The notes under the pieces are model-generated. The model was not told the origin of the DNA, did no database searches, and was given only the letters and a program-made list of their open reading frames with translations. Shown one piece after another: positions 8,481 through 17,396 of a stretch of 64,000 nt of DNA (positions within the stretch are counted from its first letter, which is position 1; each line of letters opens with the position of its first letter). The DNA is from Alitabrizicola rongguiensis (GTDB taxonomy: Bacteria; Pseudomonadota; Alphaproteobacteria; Rhodobacterales; Rhodobacteraceae): contig NZ_JAKENF010000001.1 in the NCBI RefSeq assembly GCF_021491355.1, forward strand, positions 372,001-436,000, given 5' to 3'. Position numbers and translations under genes: made by a program.

Positions 8481-9590
8481 TTACTTGTAGACGATTCCGC
8501 CGTTCGACGGGCCCCAGAAGTCCGTCCAGTCATAGGTCGGGACGTTGTCCAGGTACTTGGCCTTGAAGTCGGCGGCGTCCTTGGCCGTCACAAGGATCGT
8601 CGGGCCATAAAACTCGCGGTGTTCGTGCGGCTCTTCCGACGGCTTGAACGTGCCGATGGCGGCATGGTATGCGAGCGACAGTGTGATGCCGCCGCCCCAG
8701 TGCGGGTTGGTGAACACGGTGGCCAAGAGCTTACCGTCCATCACCATCTGCACGGCTTCCGGGTTGCCATCATAGGCGACGATCGGCATGCCTTCGATGC
8801 CTTCGGCCTTCAGCGCCTCCATGACACCATAGGCGATGTTGTCGTTGGCGCAATGAACGCCGGTGATCTGGTCGCCGTACTTGGTCAGGAAGCTGGCCAT
8901 CAGTTCGGCCGCCTTGGTGGTGTCCCAGTCTGCGGGCTGAGCGTCCAGCAGCGTGATGTCCGGATAGTCCTTCAGCGCGTTCTTCAGGCCGTTCAGCCGC
9001 TCGATGGCTGGGTTGTTGGCAGCAATGCCGCCCAGGTGAACGACCCCGCCCTTGCCACCCATCGCCTCGAACAGTATGCGGGCGGTTTCCTCGGCAGGCT
9101 TCTCATCCGACCAGGTCATGTGGCTGACCCAGTTGTCACCGAAGTCCCAGGGATGCGCGTCGTCGGTCTTGTTCCAGATCGTCGAGACATAGCCGCCCGC
9201 AGCCTGGACCGCCTCTGCCACCGGACGCGCGTTCGGGCTGTCGTTCGGATCGCAAGCGATGGCGCAGGCGCCGTTATTCTTGGCGAGGAATGCTTTGATG
9301 TCAGCCAGCGACTTTTCCGACGACCCTTCGTTGATTAGCGAGGTCATCGCATCCTTGGGCTTGCCGATGGATTCGGTGAATGCTTCGCCGCCCGAGACGA
9401 TGGCGTTCCAGTAGGCCGAGGCGCGGTCGCGGTAAGACCAGGCAAGAGCAGGCTCGGTTGCGGCGCGGGCCATGCCGCCGCCGAAGACGCCGGGCATGGT
9501 GGCCGAGGTCAGACCGGCAGCCGAAGCGAGCAGGAAGTTCCGACGGTTGATCGTTTCGCGTTCGATGAAGTCCTTGATGAACGTGGACAT
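8481..9590 (-). CDS. Periplasmic sugar-type solute-binding protein with Tat signal
   Basis: A 369-aa type I periplasmic binding protein of the RbsB-like class. The start is set at ATG 9590 because GGGAGGA lies just upstream; an earlier in-frame ATG at 9623 lacks this. Residues about 15-45 hold a twin-arginine signal (NRRNFLLASAAG ending at MARAA), so the protein is probably exported folded. Later landmarks are VHCANDNIAYGVMEAL, IVAYDGNPEAVQ and the C-terminal W-rich DWTDFWGP. It delivers the solute to the CUT2 permeases and heads the five-gene importer/dehydrogenase operon. An operator-like site lies at 9686-9701. Confidence 0.9.
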   Translation of the reverse strand: MSTFIKDFIERETINRRNFLLASAAGLTSATMPGVFGGGMARAATEPALAWSYRDRASAYWNAIVSGGEAFTESIGKPKDAMTSLINEGSSEKSLADIKAFLAKNNGACAIACDPNDSPNARPVAEAVQAAGGYVSTIWNKTDDAHPWDFGDNWVSHMTWSDEKPAEETARILFEAMGGKGGVVHLGGIAANNPAIERLNGLKNALKDYPDITLLDAQPADWDTTKAAELMASFLTKYGDQITGVHCANDNIAYGVMEALKAEGIEGMPIVAYDGNPEAVQMVMDGKLLATVFTNPHWGGGITLSLAYHAAIGTFKPSEEPHEHREFYGPTILVTAKDAADFKAKYLDNVPTYDWTDFWGPSNGGIVYK

Positions 9591-12727: not shown

Positions 12728-12848
12728 TGCCCCCTGAGAACTGGACCGCTTGAAGCTGGAGTTTTCCGCTACGTTTTCCTGGCTGGGAGAGGAGCGGATT
12801 CGCATGAAGGCATCGCGGTTCACGGAGGCGCAGAAGGCGTTCATCCTG
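12728..12848 (+). mobile_element. Truncated left end of an IS3-family element
   Basis: The stretch begins with TGCCCCCTGAGAACTGGACC, a typical IS3-family terminal repeat related to the one of the complete element at 15739-16997. It reaches an orfA start at ATG 12804 encoding MKASRFTEAQKAFIL, the usual N-terminus of these transposase OrfA proteins. Homology stops at about 12848, where a different reading frame partner takes over. The rest of the element is absent. Confidence 0.65.
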
Positions 12849-13013
12849 CCCGGCGACATTATGCAGAAAGGACCGAACGCGTTGCGCGAAGGCAGGGTGG
12901 CGAAGGCAGCCATTGCCACACTCGAAAGGTATGGATGGCTTGTTCGACTTCCGGATGGTGCCATGGTCCGCGGCGTAGCTCGCAAGGAAGCATATCGGGT
13001 CGTGAGGGCTTGA
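12849..13013 (+). pseudogene. C-terminal fragment of a primase/DUF3987-like mobile-element protein
   Basis: About 54 residues remain, with KGPNALREGRVAKAAIATLE, YGWLVRLPDGAMVRG and a basic end before TGA. This resembles the C-terminal winged-helix-like tail of DUF3987/primase proteins carried by Rhodobacteraceae prophages and satellites. The 5' part was replaced by the IS end, which happens to read in frame with it. The next gene starts two bases after its stop, as in intact versions of such islands. The family assignment is from pattern memory and is tentative. Confidence 0.4.
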
Positions 13014-13014
13014 G

Positions 13015-13377
13015 ATGTTGTTTGACGTGCGAGCCGCCCTTGCGGAAATCCAGAACGATATACGCTATGCCGCGAAACCCGCGAATTACGCGAAACCGAT
13101 AGGCGATGCACCCCCTGTTTCGCGGGTTTCGCAGGTTTCGCAATGCGCAGAGCCGCAAAACAGAAGCAGCCCGGGCGGACAACTCTTTCCACCTCCCGCC
13201 ATCCAAATCCAAGCTGACGATGACCCATTCCCTCACGGTCGGGCGGTGAACGGCAACCCCAAGACATGGACGGGCCGCATCGTCAGTCTCGATGAATGGC
13301 AACGGCTGTCGGACTGGGATAGGCACGGCTCGACGGGGAAGGTTTGGAATGCGCTCACAAGACGATGGGAGCCCTAA
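13015..13377 (+). CDS. Small mobile-element protein containing inverted 9-bp iterons
   Basis: A 120-aa hypothetical protein. Residues about 20-28 are three AKP-like tripeptides (AKP, ANY, AKP) and residues about 35-43 are three VS(R/Q) tripeptides. Both are products of one inverted array of 9-bp DNA repeats at 13072-13141. The C-terminal part, with a SLDEWQRLSDWDRHG segment and an ending of WNALTRRWEP, looks like a conserved small domain. Its start codon follows the primase-like fragment stop by one base. I do not know its function; similar primase-neighbour proteins with short tandem tripeptides occur in related islands. Confidence 0.55.
   Translation: MLFDVRAALAEIQNDIRYAAKPANYAKPIGDAPPVSRVSQVSQCAEPQNRSSPGGQLFPPPAIQIQADDDPFPHGRAVNGNPKTWTGRIVSLDEWQRLSDWDRHGSTGKVWNALTRRWEP
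13072..13141. repeat. 3+3 inverted array of 9-bp iterons (consensus GCGAAACCC)
   Basis: Three 9-mers on the plus strand (13072-13080, 13081-13089, 13090-13098: GCGAAACCC, GCGAATTAC, GCGAAACCG) face three on the minus strand (13115-13123, 13124-13132, 13133-13141: GCGAAACAG, GCGAAACCC, GCGAAACCT). A 16-bp spacer separates them. Five of six keep GCGAAAC exactly. The repeats are in coding phase with the 13015 gene. Confidence 0.8.
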
Positions 13378-13481: not shown

Positions 13482-13907
13482 TCAGGGCTCGATGTCATCT
13501 TCATCATTCAAATGGCTGTCTGGAAGAGCAGCAAGGGACGCCGACGGCAGCTCCTGCACGGATCGAATGGGCATAGCCGACCCGCGCTGTGAGATCTCGC
13601 GGATGGCCTCGGCGAGCGGGTTGACGCTGGGTTCGAGAGTCGCAGGTGCCTTGCCATAGCCCCGGTCGATGATGGCGTTGGCTGCCGACACGCGTGCCGC
13701 TGCCGGAGCATTCGCGTCTTTTGCAACATCGACGAGCACCTTCAGGGCATCCTCGGCAAAGTTACGCGCCAATTCTGCGATCTCTTTCTTGGCCTCGCTC
13801 TCCTTGCCCTTCGGCCGTCCTGCTCCCGGCCGTCGCCCTCCGCGCGAGGCAACTGATATTTGATTTGCCGTATTGTTTTTCAGATCGCCCACGAAAGCAC
13901 CTTGCAT
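13482..13907 (-). CDS. Phage-like small protein with RGGRRPGAGRPKG motif
   Basis: A 141-aa hydrophilic protein. Residues about 20-35 contain RGGRRPGAGRPKG, a basic motif frequent near the N-terminus of small phage proteins such as terminase-small-subunit-like or DNA-binding proteins. It is followed by a charged helix and a segment with RVSAANAIIDRGYGKAP, which is also seen in such proteins. The C-terminus is acidic. No strong ribosome-binding site precedes ATG 13907. It is probably a prophage remnant; the exact role is unknown. Confidence 0.55.
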   Translation of the reverse strand: MQGAFVGDLKNNTANQISVASRGGRRPGAGRPKGKESEAKKEIAELARNFAEDALKVLVDVAKDANAPAAARVSAANAIIDRGYGKAPATLEPSVNPLAEAIREISQRGSAMPIRSVQELPSASLAALPDSHLNDEDDIEP

Positions 13908-15767: not shown

Positions 15768-16664
15768 TTAGTGCATGACAGGTCTTGGCGCTACGGCCGG
15801 GGTGGCCGGCGAAGCGGGTCCGGATGGCGAAGCCGGCCACTGCACCGCCTCGGGGGCCGGGGGGCGATAGCCCAGTGATGAGTGCGGGCGCCTCGTGTTG
15901 TAGTGGCGGCGCCAAGACTCGATGACGATCTTCGCCTCGGCGAGGCTGTAGAAGATCTCCCCGTTCAGCAGTTCATCGCGGAGCTTGGAATTGAAGCTCT
16001 CGCAGTAGCCGTTCTCCCAGGGGGACCCCGGCTCGATATAGGCGGTCTTCGCGCCGACGGCGGCGATCCACTCCCGCACCGCCTTGGCGATGAACTCCGG
16101 GCCATTGTCCGACCGTATGTGATCCGGCACTCCGCGCAGGATGAACAGATCAGACAGCACGTCGATGACGTCGGTCGACCGAAGCTTGCGTTCGACGCGG
16201 ATCGCCAGGCATTCGAAGCTGAACTCGTCGATGAGGTTGAGCATGCGGAACTTCCTCCCGTCGTGGGTCCGGCTTTCAACGAAGTCGTAGGACCAGACAT
16301 GGTTCGGACGCTCGGGCCGAAGACGGATGCACGACCCGTCGTTCAGCCAGAGCCGGCCCTTCTTCGGTTGCTTTTGTGGGACCTTCAGCCCCTCCCGCCG
16401 CCAGATCCTCTCGACCCGTTTCACGTTCACCGCCCAACCGGCCTCGCGCAGAAGGGCCGTGATCCGGCGGTATCCGTAGCGCCCATATTGCGAGGCGAGC
16501 GCGATGATGTCCGCCGTCAGGGCGTCTTCATCGGCGCGCCCCTGCGGCACCTTCCGCTGGGTCGAGCGATGTTGCCCGAGCACGCGACAGGCGAGCCGTT
16601 CCGAGATCTGGAACTTCTGCCGGACGTGGTCGATGCAGGCACGGCGGCGGGCGGGGCTCAGAAG
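15768..16664 (-). CDS. IS3-family transposase OrfB (catalytic part)
   Basis: The catalytic frame is open from about 16664 and has a possible GTG at 16583. It carries an HTH_21-like segment ([20 protein letters not shown]) and an rve integrase core. The DDE residues are in [18 protein letters not shown] and [13 protein letters not shown], and the C-terminal [12 protein letters not shown] box is present. It should be made as an OrfAB fusion by -1 slippage near GGAAAC at 16664-16669, after which the sequence continues [18 protein letters not shown]. All key residues are present, so the element could still be active. Confidence 0.88.
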
Positions 16665-16936
16665 TTTCCCCGTGCAGCCTCAGCCAGGATCAGCTTCTCC
16701 AGAGTCAGATCGGACACCGCTTTCCGGAGGCGCTCGTTCTCCTTCTCCAGCTCCTTGAGCCGCCTCACCTGGTCGGTCTTCAGCCCGCCAAACTCCTTCC
16801 GCCACCGGTAGTAGGTGAACTGCGTCACGCCGATTGACCGTACGGCCTCCGCAACCGATTGGCCCCGCGACACCAATACGTCGACCTGCCGCAGCTTCGC
16901 GACGATCTCCTCCGGCTTGTGCTTCTTCTGGGGCAT
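16658..16936 (-). CDS. IS3-family transposase OrfA
   Basis: A 92-aa helix-turn-helix protein beginning MPQKKHKPEEIVAKLRQVDV, with SVAEAVRSIGVTQFTYYRWR as the DNA-binding helices. A leucine-zipper-like helix (LKELEKENERLRKAVSDLTL) follows. It recognises the element ends and partners OrfB. The last codons overlap the OrfB frame in the -1 phase. The ATG at 16936 is chosen over an upstream in-frame codon because it matches the usual OrfA length. Confidence 0.88.
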   Translation of the reverse strand: MPQKKHKPEEIVAKLRQVDVLVSRGQSVAEAVRSIGVTQFTYYRWRKEFGGLKTDQVRRLKELEKENERLRKAVSDLTLEKLILAEAARGNF

Positions 16937-16997
16937 TCCTGCATCCTCCAAATGGCTCGAAAGCCATACCTCAGGGAGGACCACTTTTCAGGGGGCA

Positions 16998-17319: not shown

Positions 17320-17396
17320 TGGCGGACCCGGAGCGATTCGAACGCCCGACCCTCAGATTCGTAGTCTGATGCTCTATCCAGCTGAGCTACGGGTCC
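17320..17396 (-). tRNA. tRNA-Arg (anticodon ACG)
   Basis: A 77-nt cloverleaf including encoded CCA (TGG at 17320-17322 on the plus strand). The acceptor stem pairs GGACCCG with CGGGTCC. The D-arm contains AGCTCAGCTGGATAGAGC, the anticodon loop is CTACGAA with ACG at 17360-17362, and the T-arm has GTTCGAATC. It reads CGN arginine codons after A34 deamination. Its 3' end faces the island on the left, a common integration site. Confidence 0.97.

Follow-up and report, generated by a model that had tools for sequence, protein, structure and literature searches.

What is a symmetrical array of 9-bp repeats doing inside a protein-coding gene? The question is raised by a 64,000-nucleotide stretch of the Alitabrizicola rongguiensis genome (contig NZ_JAKENF010000001.1, positions 372,001 to 436,000; hereafter the window), where three GCGAAA-type 9-mers face three inverted copies at positions 13072-13141, within an open reading frame (ORF) that follows the remnant of a DUF3987 gene. 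A first-pass annotation had suggested that such an array could be an origin or recognition site of a satellite element. On the combined weight of sequence comparison, structural modelling and analogy with known systems, we regard it with good confidence as the iteron cluster, or replication origin, of a small tRNA-integrated satellite-like element, to be read by the C-terminus of a DUF3987 helicase.

An inverted iteron array within a small gene

The features on which the argument rests are as follows (window coordinates).

13015..13377, + strand: array gene, 120 codons, with the ORF start 1 bp past the DUF3987 stop
13072..13098, + strand: left iteron block, GCGAAACCC (13072-13080), GCGAATTAC (13081-13089) and GCGAAACCG (13090-13098), encoding AKP ANY AKP
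13099..13114, no strand: spacer between the blocks, 16 bp
13115..13141, - strand: right iteron block, three inverted copies (reverse complement of GCGAAAC-type units), encoding VSR VSQ VSQ
13222..13374, + strand: conserved C-terminal domain of the array protein, WTGRIVSLDEW..LSDWDRHG..GK.WN..TRRWE
12834..13013, + strand: DUF3987 helicase C-terminal remnant, the end of ORF 12750-13013, holding the candidate iteron-reading helix
12852..12869, + strand: candidate specificity-helix codons G-D-I-M-Q-K, from alignment with DUF3987 proteins

Checking against the sequence confirmed the coordinates, the 3+3 arrangement of 9-mers and the 16-bp spacer exactly as first annotated, and translation gave the same tripeptides. 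A repeat search found the arms 13072-13096 and 13117-13141 to be 84% complementary. Scored as a 3+3 inverted 9-bp match (maximum 54), the array reached 48 at its best register (13070/13071) and 47 at the register annotated before. The second-best separate site in the window scored 42 and 12 shuffled 64-kb windows gave at most 41; such an array occurs only once within the 64 kb. A score of at least 48 was obtained in 0 of 1000 codon-order shuffles of the array ORF (maximum 40), in 0 of 1000 synonymous re-dealings (maximum 46) and in 0 of 1000 synonymous samplings (maximum 46), indicating that the array goes beyond the requirements of the peptide.

The "primase-like fragment" that had been noted before the array gene proved to be a truncated DUF3987 gene: window positions 12834-13004 (G000:C5:384834-385004) match residues 446-502 of the DUF3987 protein of two related loci, L032 and L122 (E 8.9e-10). 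The array protein itself had no match in Pfam, PHROGs or NCBIfam.

Arrays of variable sequence and constant geometry in related loci

Homologs of the array protein were found in 22 of 394 genomes of the family, the genome of the window included, and there were none in the plasmid collection, the phage collection or the viral contigs. The 48 named homologous loci are Rhodobacterales-type or alphaproteobacterial records by title, together with one Erythrobacteraceae metagenome-assembled genome. A DUF3987 ORF lies directly upstream of the array gene in 44 of the 48 (not L082, L109, L110 or L119), and in relatives the array gene closes the replication operon.

A rigid array score of at least 44 was reached in 29 of the 48 loci and in 0 of 350 control stretches from the same loci, and a score of at least 42 in 33 loci and one control. 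A second detector, which allows variable spacing, gave at least 3.6 in 33 of 49 loci (window included) compared with 1 of 358 controls. By the union of the two (rigid 44 or flexible 3.6), inverted arrays are present in 34 of the 48 loci; a DUF3987 ORF precedes 32 of these (all but L082 and L109). The expectation that homologs would carry arrays of different sequence and the same geometry, preceded by a primase-type gene, was thus borne out, with arrays in 34 of 48 loci and the upstream DUF3987 gene in 44; the family is therefore not one of array-less homologs, nor of arrays with neither constant geometry nor a replication gene beside them.

The arrays comprise two iteron sets placed as inverted blocks, often of 3+3 units, with extra blocks in L117. 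The class-1 iteron has a core of GC-G/T-A-N-N plus a free 3-bp linker; the cores seen are GCGACA, GCTACA, GCTATT, GCTAAA, GCGAAT and others, and in Rhodobacterales they point inward. The second iteron class reads GACAAAAC or GGGACAA. By eye, both blocks are often flanked on the outside by C runs of the same strand (e.g. L084, L118, L117), so that the outer flanks look direct, not inverted.

Among the 28 class-1 named loci there are 106 exact cores with a neighbour 8-10 bp away, and the step is 9 bp in every case. The first-pass annotation had noted that a unit is three codons long and had suggested a coding phase forced by the position within a gene. The start codons assigned by our rule put the array in coding sequence in 22 of the 28. 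Eighteen of these coding loci have forward units, which fall in codon phase 0 in 17; reverse units are found in every phase (19, 4 and 1 loci, two of the loci having two phases). In L087, in L091 and in the first of the L117 arrays, the repeats lie before the assigned start codon yet keep the 9-bp step, and the arrays of L075 and L076 lie inside the gene and step by 8 and 10, mirrored on both arms. The 9-bp step is therefore not set by the reading frame, and arrays of other lineages, described below, step by 7-10; a unit length imposed by coding phase is not supported.

Covariation between helicase residues and iteron letters

Iteron letters were compared with 449 variable columns in an alignment of 48 DUF3987 sequences, the window fragment included (residue numbers are those of the L122 ORF). 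Training consensus cores were taken by majority from loci with a rigid score of at least 42 and at least four GC[GT] units, and the window, with three units, was added; eight consensus strings were typed by hand. The GC[GT] requirement excluded class-2 loci that have no GC core. Also left out of the scan were L046, L050, L060, L065, L067 and L071 (distant or of other layout), the duplicates L125, L126 and L132, and L129.

Residue 460 covaries with iteron position 5 at a corrected mutual information of 0.96, compared with 0.34 for the next column and at most 0.40 in 200 permutations, in which label shuffling leaves sequence relatedness in place. At position 3, residues 464 and 465 rank first and second (0.46 and 0.45; next 0.35; permutations at most 0.39). 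Arginine or lysine at 460 goes with C in 33 of 33 cases (L113 is gapped there), S460 with TT in seven of seven and G460 with AA in four of four, the window included; alanine is found with AT twice and serine with AT once. A simple rule for residue 464 (R/K464 with G, Q/L464 with T) was right in 36, wrong in six and silent in five of the 47 training rows that have the residue, and five of the failures are GCTATT rows with R/K464. In the window helix, residue 460 is G (12852-12854), 464 is Q (12864-12866) and 465 is K (12867-12869).

Relatedness was addressed on a tree built without the C-terminus, from which L078, L104 and the window were dropped. Position 3 changes 10 times on the best tree, five of these changes being forced by well-supported branches. 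Across such branches R/K460 follows position 5 in 4.9 of 5 independent pairs, with the opposite in 0, and a fitted 464/465 rule follows position 3 in 4.5 of 5 pairs, again with the opposite in 0. The tree sisters L118, from Marivita, and L107, from Lutimaribacter, are 92% identical and differ in both partners: L118 has GCGACA with R-R-L, versus GCTACA with R-Q-M in L107. Arginine-guanine and glutamine-adenine pairing are textbook contacts. Taken together, these patterns make it very likely that the array is an iteron binding site of the DUF3987 helicase. The small protein encoded across the array, one of two candidates for binding named in the first-pass annotation, was rejected as the likely partner, having no domain match and with the covarying residues located in DUF3987.

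In L148, L149 and L161 the iteron starts with CCT, not GCT, and GPFK takes the place of the conserved GPN.LR loop that follows the helix. This hints that the loop may read iteron position 1.

Tests of the residue-base rules on held-out loci

The first held-out set comprised 86 loci outside the training data. The helix could be aligned in 48, and of those, 19 were testable, meaning a GC-K-A-N class with at least five copies near the DUF3987 stop; an array was detected (flexible 3.6 or rigid 44) in only nine of the 19 (L046, L062, L068, L149, L153, L160, L171, L176, L181). The composite 464/465 rule gave the right letter at position 3 in 14 of 19 loci. Residue 464 alone (R/K with G, Q with T) was right in 16 of 18 calls, failing in L164 and L177 and making no call in L149; within the nine detector-positive loci all 8 of its calls were right. 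Position 5 was right in 14 of 15 calls; the call wrong by count was L149, where the detected array reads CCTACT.

The simple 464 rule was adopted after this result had been seen, and was then applied to new viral contigs. Of 16 such loci, six had a rigid score of at least 44 (L191, L192, L196, L200, L201, L203). Here the 464 rule was right at position 3 in 5 of 5 calls, and L201 (N464-R465) fits the composite rule alone. All 5 calls at position 5 were right as well; they do not include L191, whose H460 is not covered. The other ten loci had no array (rigid score 33-38); eight of them have a differently built C-terminus and L205 ends early. The count-of-five criterion would also admit L197, L199 and L202, with L197 wrong at position 5 and L199 a tie. 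The rules drawn from the training sequences thus mostly held in the first set, and held in every call made on the six array-bearing viral contigs.

A predicted MCM-like helicase and a proposed mechanism

An AlphaFold2 model of the L118 helicase built from 34 sequences has a mean predicted local confidence (pLDDT) of 85 and a predicted TM-score (pTM) of 0.82. It places R441, R445 and L446, the equivalents of residues 460, 464 and 465, on one helix (440-446) of a C-terminal helix-helix-strands unit. A Foldseek search of the PDB with this model gave nine matches at E of 1e-3 or below, the best at 1.6e-4, and the 50 matches listed were chains of minichromosome maintenance (MCM) proteins. A sequence search for solved homologs returned only marginal, unrelated-looking matches. 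DUF3987 is thus probably an MCM-like AAA+ helicase, as judged from the model, and a prediction of DUF3987 as a helicase family appears in the literature (PMC5862659).

We propose that a helix in the C-terminal winged-helix-like domain of DUF3987 would read the 6-bp iteron cores. The helicase would be loaded at the pair of inverted blocks that immediately follows its gene and would open the duplex there, and the neighbouring Toprim primase would do the priming. In Rhodobacterales this origin would mostly be written inside the next, overlapping or abutting gene, which would be why it appears as tripeptide repeats.

Inverted blocks beside DUF3987 genes of other lineages

A phylum-wide Pfam search, in which the DUF3987 domain PF13148 matched 44 of 299 sampled genomes, supplied 29 loci (L044-L073 without the duplicate L049), several of them from one genus. 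Inverted blocks lie at the DUF3987 3' end in 14 of the 29 at a flexible score of at least 3.6 (L046, L047, L050, L051, L053, L060-L065, L067, L068, L071). Upstream control scores were discarded for this set, being wrong wherever the ORF begins close to the end of a locus (at least L065, L067, L068 and L078). In L060-L065, L067 and L068 the blocks flank an AT-rich spacer of 38-47 bp with a mean GC content of 0.37, compared with 0.57 for the gene. Only in L062 does the first block follow the DUF3987 stop; in the other seven it is still inside that ORF, at its end. The arms point outward in L061, L062 and L068, where the core can be aligned.

Organisation of the elements

In L032 the operon begins with a tyrosine integrase and an unclassified gene; then come an HTH_17 protein (24.5 bits, below the cut-off of 27), a Toprim_3 primase, DUF3987 and the array gene. 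PF13148 matched with 315 bits in L032 and 211 bits in L040 (cut-off 27), and the integrase was confirmed by Pfam also in L084, L093, L106, L108, L114, L117 and L118.

A tRNA gene was present in 17 of 20 scanned loci of 7-20 kb and there was none in L027, L028 or L089 (L089, like other scanned loci, is about 12 kb long). In 11 of the 17 (L024, L026, L033, L036, L042, L043, L084, L092, L093, L106, L118) 14-19 bp of the tRNA 3' end are repeated directly at a distance of 6.8 to about 13 kb, on the far side of the array; this repeat was not found for L032, L040, L107, L114 or L080, and in L117 the match is a second tRNA copy only. The spacing of the tRNA-derived repeats would therefore make these elements of satellite size: the 11 loci suggest tRNA-integrated elements of 6.8-13 kb, for which a satellite lifestyle is plausible.

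Comparison with known replication systems

The closest likeness is to Staphylococcus aureus pathogenicity islands (SaPI) and other phage-inducible chromosomal islands (PICI). In the passages of the reports considered here, SaPI Rep recognises iterons downstream of its gene via its C-terminal domain (PMC7581432, citing Ubeda 2007) and PICI origins have two iteron sets around an AT-rich region (PMC6092414). The shared features are an origin, here a putative one, directly 3' of the initiator helicase gene, two iteron sets and an integrase, excisionase and primase context (PMC6092414, PMC7581432). Our loci differ in that the helicase is DUF3987 and that most Rhodobacterales arrays lie in the next gene, their arms facing inward and their spacer short and not AT-rich; the layout of L060-L065, L067 and L068 shares the AT-rich spacer of PICI. 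The isolated C-terminal domain of Cch2, from the staphylococcal cassette SCCmec, has been shown biochemically to bind iterons downstream of its gene, and that helicase was likened to MCM (PMC7581432). Cch2 belongs to another gene family with other priming partners, its AAGTG iterons are direct repeats, and the portion of the report considered does not describe inverted 9-bp blocks inside a gene (PMC7581432).

Among satellites, the Vibrio PICMI elements are about 6 kb long and carry int, alpA and a primase gene modelled by DUF3987 and DUF5906, deletion of which (prim) lowers the circular copy number (PMC10803314); unlike the elements described here, they integrate at fis and not at tRNA genes, and their origin sequence is not described in the part of that source considered (PMC10803314). 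The satellite prophage phiAH14b, reported in the available text to be induced and packaged (PMC4936722; record KU708005), also carries int, AlpA, a Toprim_3 primase and a helicase. In its 16.8-kb sequence (L190, KU708005) all 10 copies of GGGGAAC lie in a 309-bp gap (9248-9556) 3' of the helicase gene, in both orientations and with steps of 8-9 within runs, and by sequence this gap is likely to be the phiAH14b origin. It differs in having a DUF927 helicase, a repeat region without an annotated gene and an unrelated iteron. The main text of the phiAH14b paper, as available, contains no "iteron", and its single "repeats" concerns phage AH14a (PMC4936722).

The lambda origin likewise has iterons inside a coding gene, gene O, as far as the excerpt consulted goes (PMC3985674), yet there the host gene is the initiator itself, whereas in Rhodobacterales it is mostly the neighbour gene. 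In PLE satellites the RepA initiators and iteron origins also covary and swap as modules, cognate pairs being needed, according to the parts of two reports considered (PMC7145576, PMC8263062); RepA belongs to the RepA_N family, with a different domain and longer semi-palindromic iterons. A literature search covering titles and the openings of abstracts, outside subscription papers, returned none describing DUF3987 iterons or origins inside the following gene. Within this general kind of origin, the arrays are set apart by the combination of embedding in a coding gene, inward arms, a spacer that is not AT-rich, a code that can be deduced and the distal half-arrays described next.

Half-arrays away from the main array

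Chains of at least three copies of an element's own core were found outside the main array 11 times in the 28 loci, compared with once for six other cores together, an excess that counts in favour of the DUF3987 reading. These half-arrays hold three or four copies. The integrase catalytic domain, PF00589, contains five (L084, L106, L108, L114, L117), four of them just before a W-T-I-P-A-S-R-M-K stretch. Two are near the start of another gene, with weak regulator-like Pfam matches below cut-off (L085, L092), one falls within no ORF longer than 120 aa (L095) and three are inside DUF3987 (L079, L090, L098). The crr of P4 is a possible analogy for such distal sites.

We give somewhat less than an even chance to a tentative generalisation, in which the DUF3987/YfjI proteins would form a large family of initiators of satellite replication, each reading its iterons almost entirely with one helix (residue 460 for base 5, 464/465 for base 3). 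One or two substitutions would then be enough to switch origin specificity, the sites would be hidden in coding DNA and repeated as half-arrays in the integrase catalytic domain, and a single helicase could couple origin firing to excision or integration. If true, such switching would create many origin types.

The main reading, of an origin read by DUF3987, would by itself give a function and a readable DNA code to a domain of unknown function present in the sampled genomes counted above. It would also provide a sequence rule for locating origins in satellite-like elements and for sorting the elements into groups that may compete for one origin, and tripeptide-repeat "proteins" beside replication genes could be disguised DNA sites. 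The sister pair L107 and L118, with its different iterons, makes this main reading directly testable.

Weighing the alternatives

Several observations weigh against an origin read by DUF3987. The window itself breaks the simple 464 rule, being the sole training row with Q464 and GCG. With R464 alone, the tree gives the same direction in 2.2, the opposite in 0.1 and no difference in 2.7 of 5 pairs, and with five pairs the p value cannot drop below 0.0625. Both detectors fail in 14 of the 48 array-gene loci: blocks are in one orientation in L074, L083, L092, L099 and L102, L105, L114 and L077 score 42, L111 has an irregular array, nothing callable as an array was seen in L094, L096, L119 and L120, and L110 was not resolved; among the passes, that of L100 depends on a chance partner for its one real block. 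Fifteen of the 29 phylum-search loci have no array by the flexible detector, and in Escherichia coli K-12 MG1655 no inverted iteron array was found 3' of yfjI, the DUF3987 gene of CP4-57 (L152; gene order intA-yfjH-alpA-yfjI). The class-1 spacer of Rhodobacterales is not AT-rich as it is in PICI origins (mean GC 0.65, median length 15 bp, 39 loci). On the structural side, query-normalised TM-scores to MCM are low (0.23-0.40 among the matches listed), the isolated C-terminal domain has a pTM of 0.62 with weak winged-helix matches (best E 0.05, TubR), and the covarying residues sit one helix before the usual recognition helix.

The alternative that survives best accepts the array as a DUF3987 binding site and makes it mainly a regulatory operator, for autoregulation of the operon or control of int, instead of an origin. 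A protein with several regulatory sites would be expected to have own-core half-arrays of the kind seen in int, in DUF3987 and close to the start of a following gene. However, the main array lies 3' of the operon and not at its head, the eight loci with an AT-rich spacer have, at the corresponding place, the layout given for PICI origins in the source cited above (PMC6092414), and the protein resembles MCM helicases and adjoins a primase in L032. We consider an operator unlikely. A site-specific recombination, centromere or packaging site of the element would suit short inverted repeats on a mobile element, the half-arrays inside int in five loci and the partition protein TubR as best weak structural match of the C-terminal domain, but the proposed element ends (11 of 17 loci) are tRNA 3'-end repeats kilobases from the array and the covarying protein is a helicase, leaving this reading very improbable. 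Least credible of all, and rejected, is a tripeptide-repeat linker of the small protein with the DNA symmetry as by-product, which would accommodate the coding arrays and the phase-0 forward units, since the synonymous controls (0 of 1000), the arrays before the start codon, the mirrored 8- and 10-bp steps within the gene, the three phases of the reverse units and the covariation of array letters with the helicase speak against it.

We therefore return to the origin read by DUF3987. As for the two functions named in the first-pass annotation, that of a recognition site is very probable, given the 34 arrays and 44 upstream DUF3987 genes among the 48 loci, and that of an origin is likely, by position and by analogy.

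The remnant in the window

PF13148 had no match anywhere in the genome of the window (G000), window fragment included; for the fragment this is because it corresponds to residues beyond the Pfam domain, and for the genome it implies that the element has decayed. The array of the window would thus be an orphan relic without a complete initiator, its element reduced to fragments. An IS3-family transposase lies near the remnant at 15768-16984 on the - strand (NF033516, E 2.6e-68), and the ORF at 12750 opens with what we take to be an IS3-orfA-like stretch; insertion and deletion may have cut the element. A tRNA-Arg gene (acg) at 17320-17396 on the - strand, 4.2 kb from the array, is a possible former integration site, as in L106; a search for a direct repeat of its 3' end found none. 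For a small ORF at 13482-13907 on the - strand there is a match to phrog_15261 (E 7.9e-19), a family of unknown function, and a weak one to a terminase small subunit (E 0.00067). A second locus, L166 (G183:C35), resembles the window in having a C-terminal-only DUF3987 match with GCGAC copies downstream.
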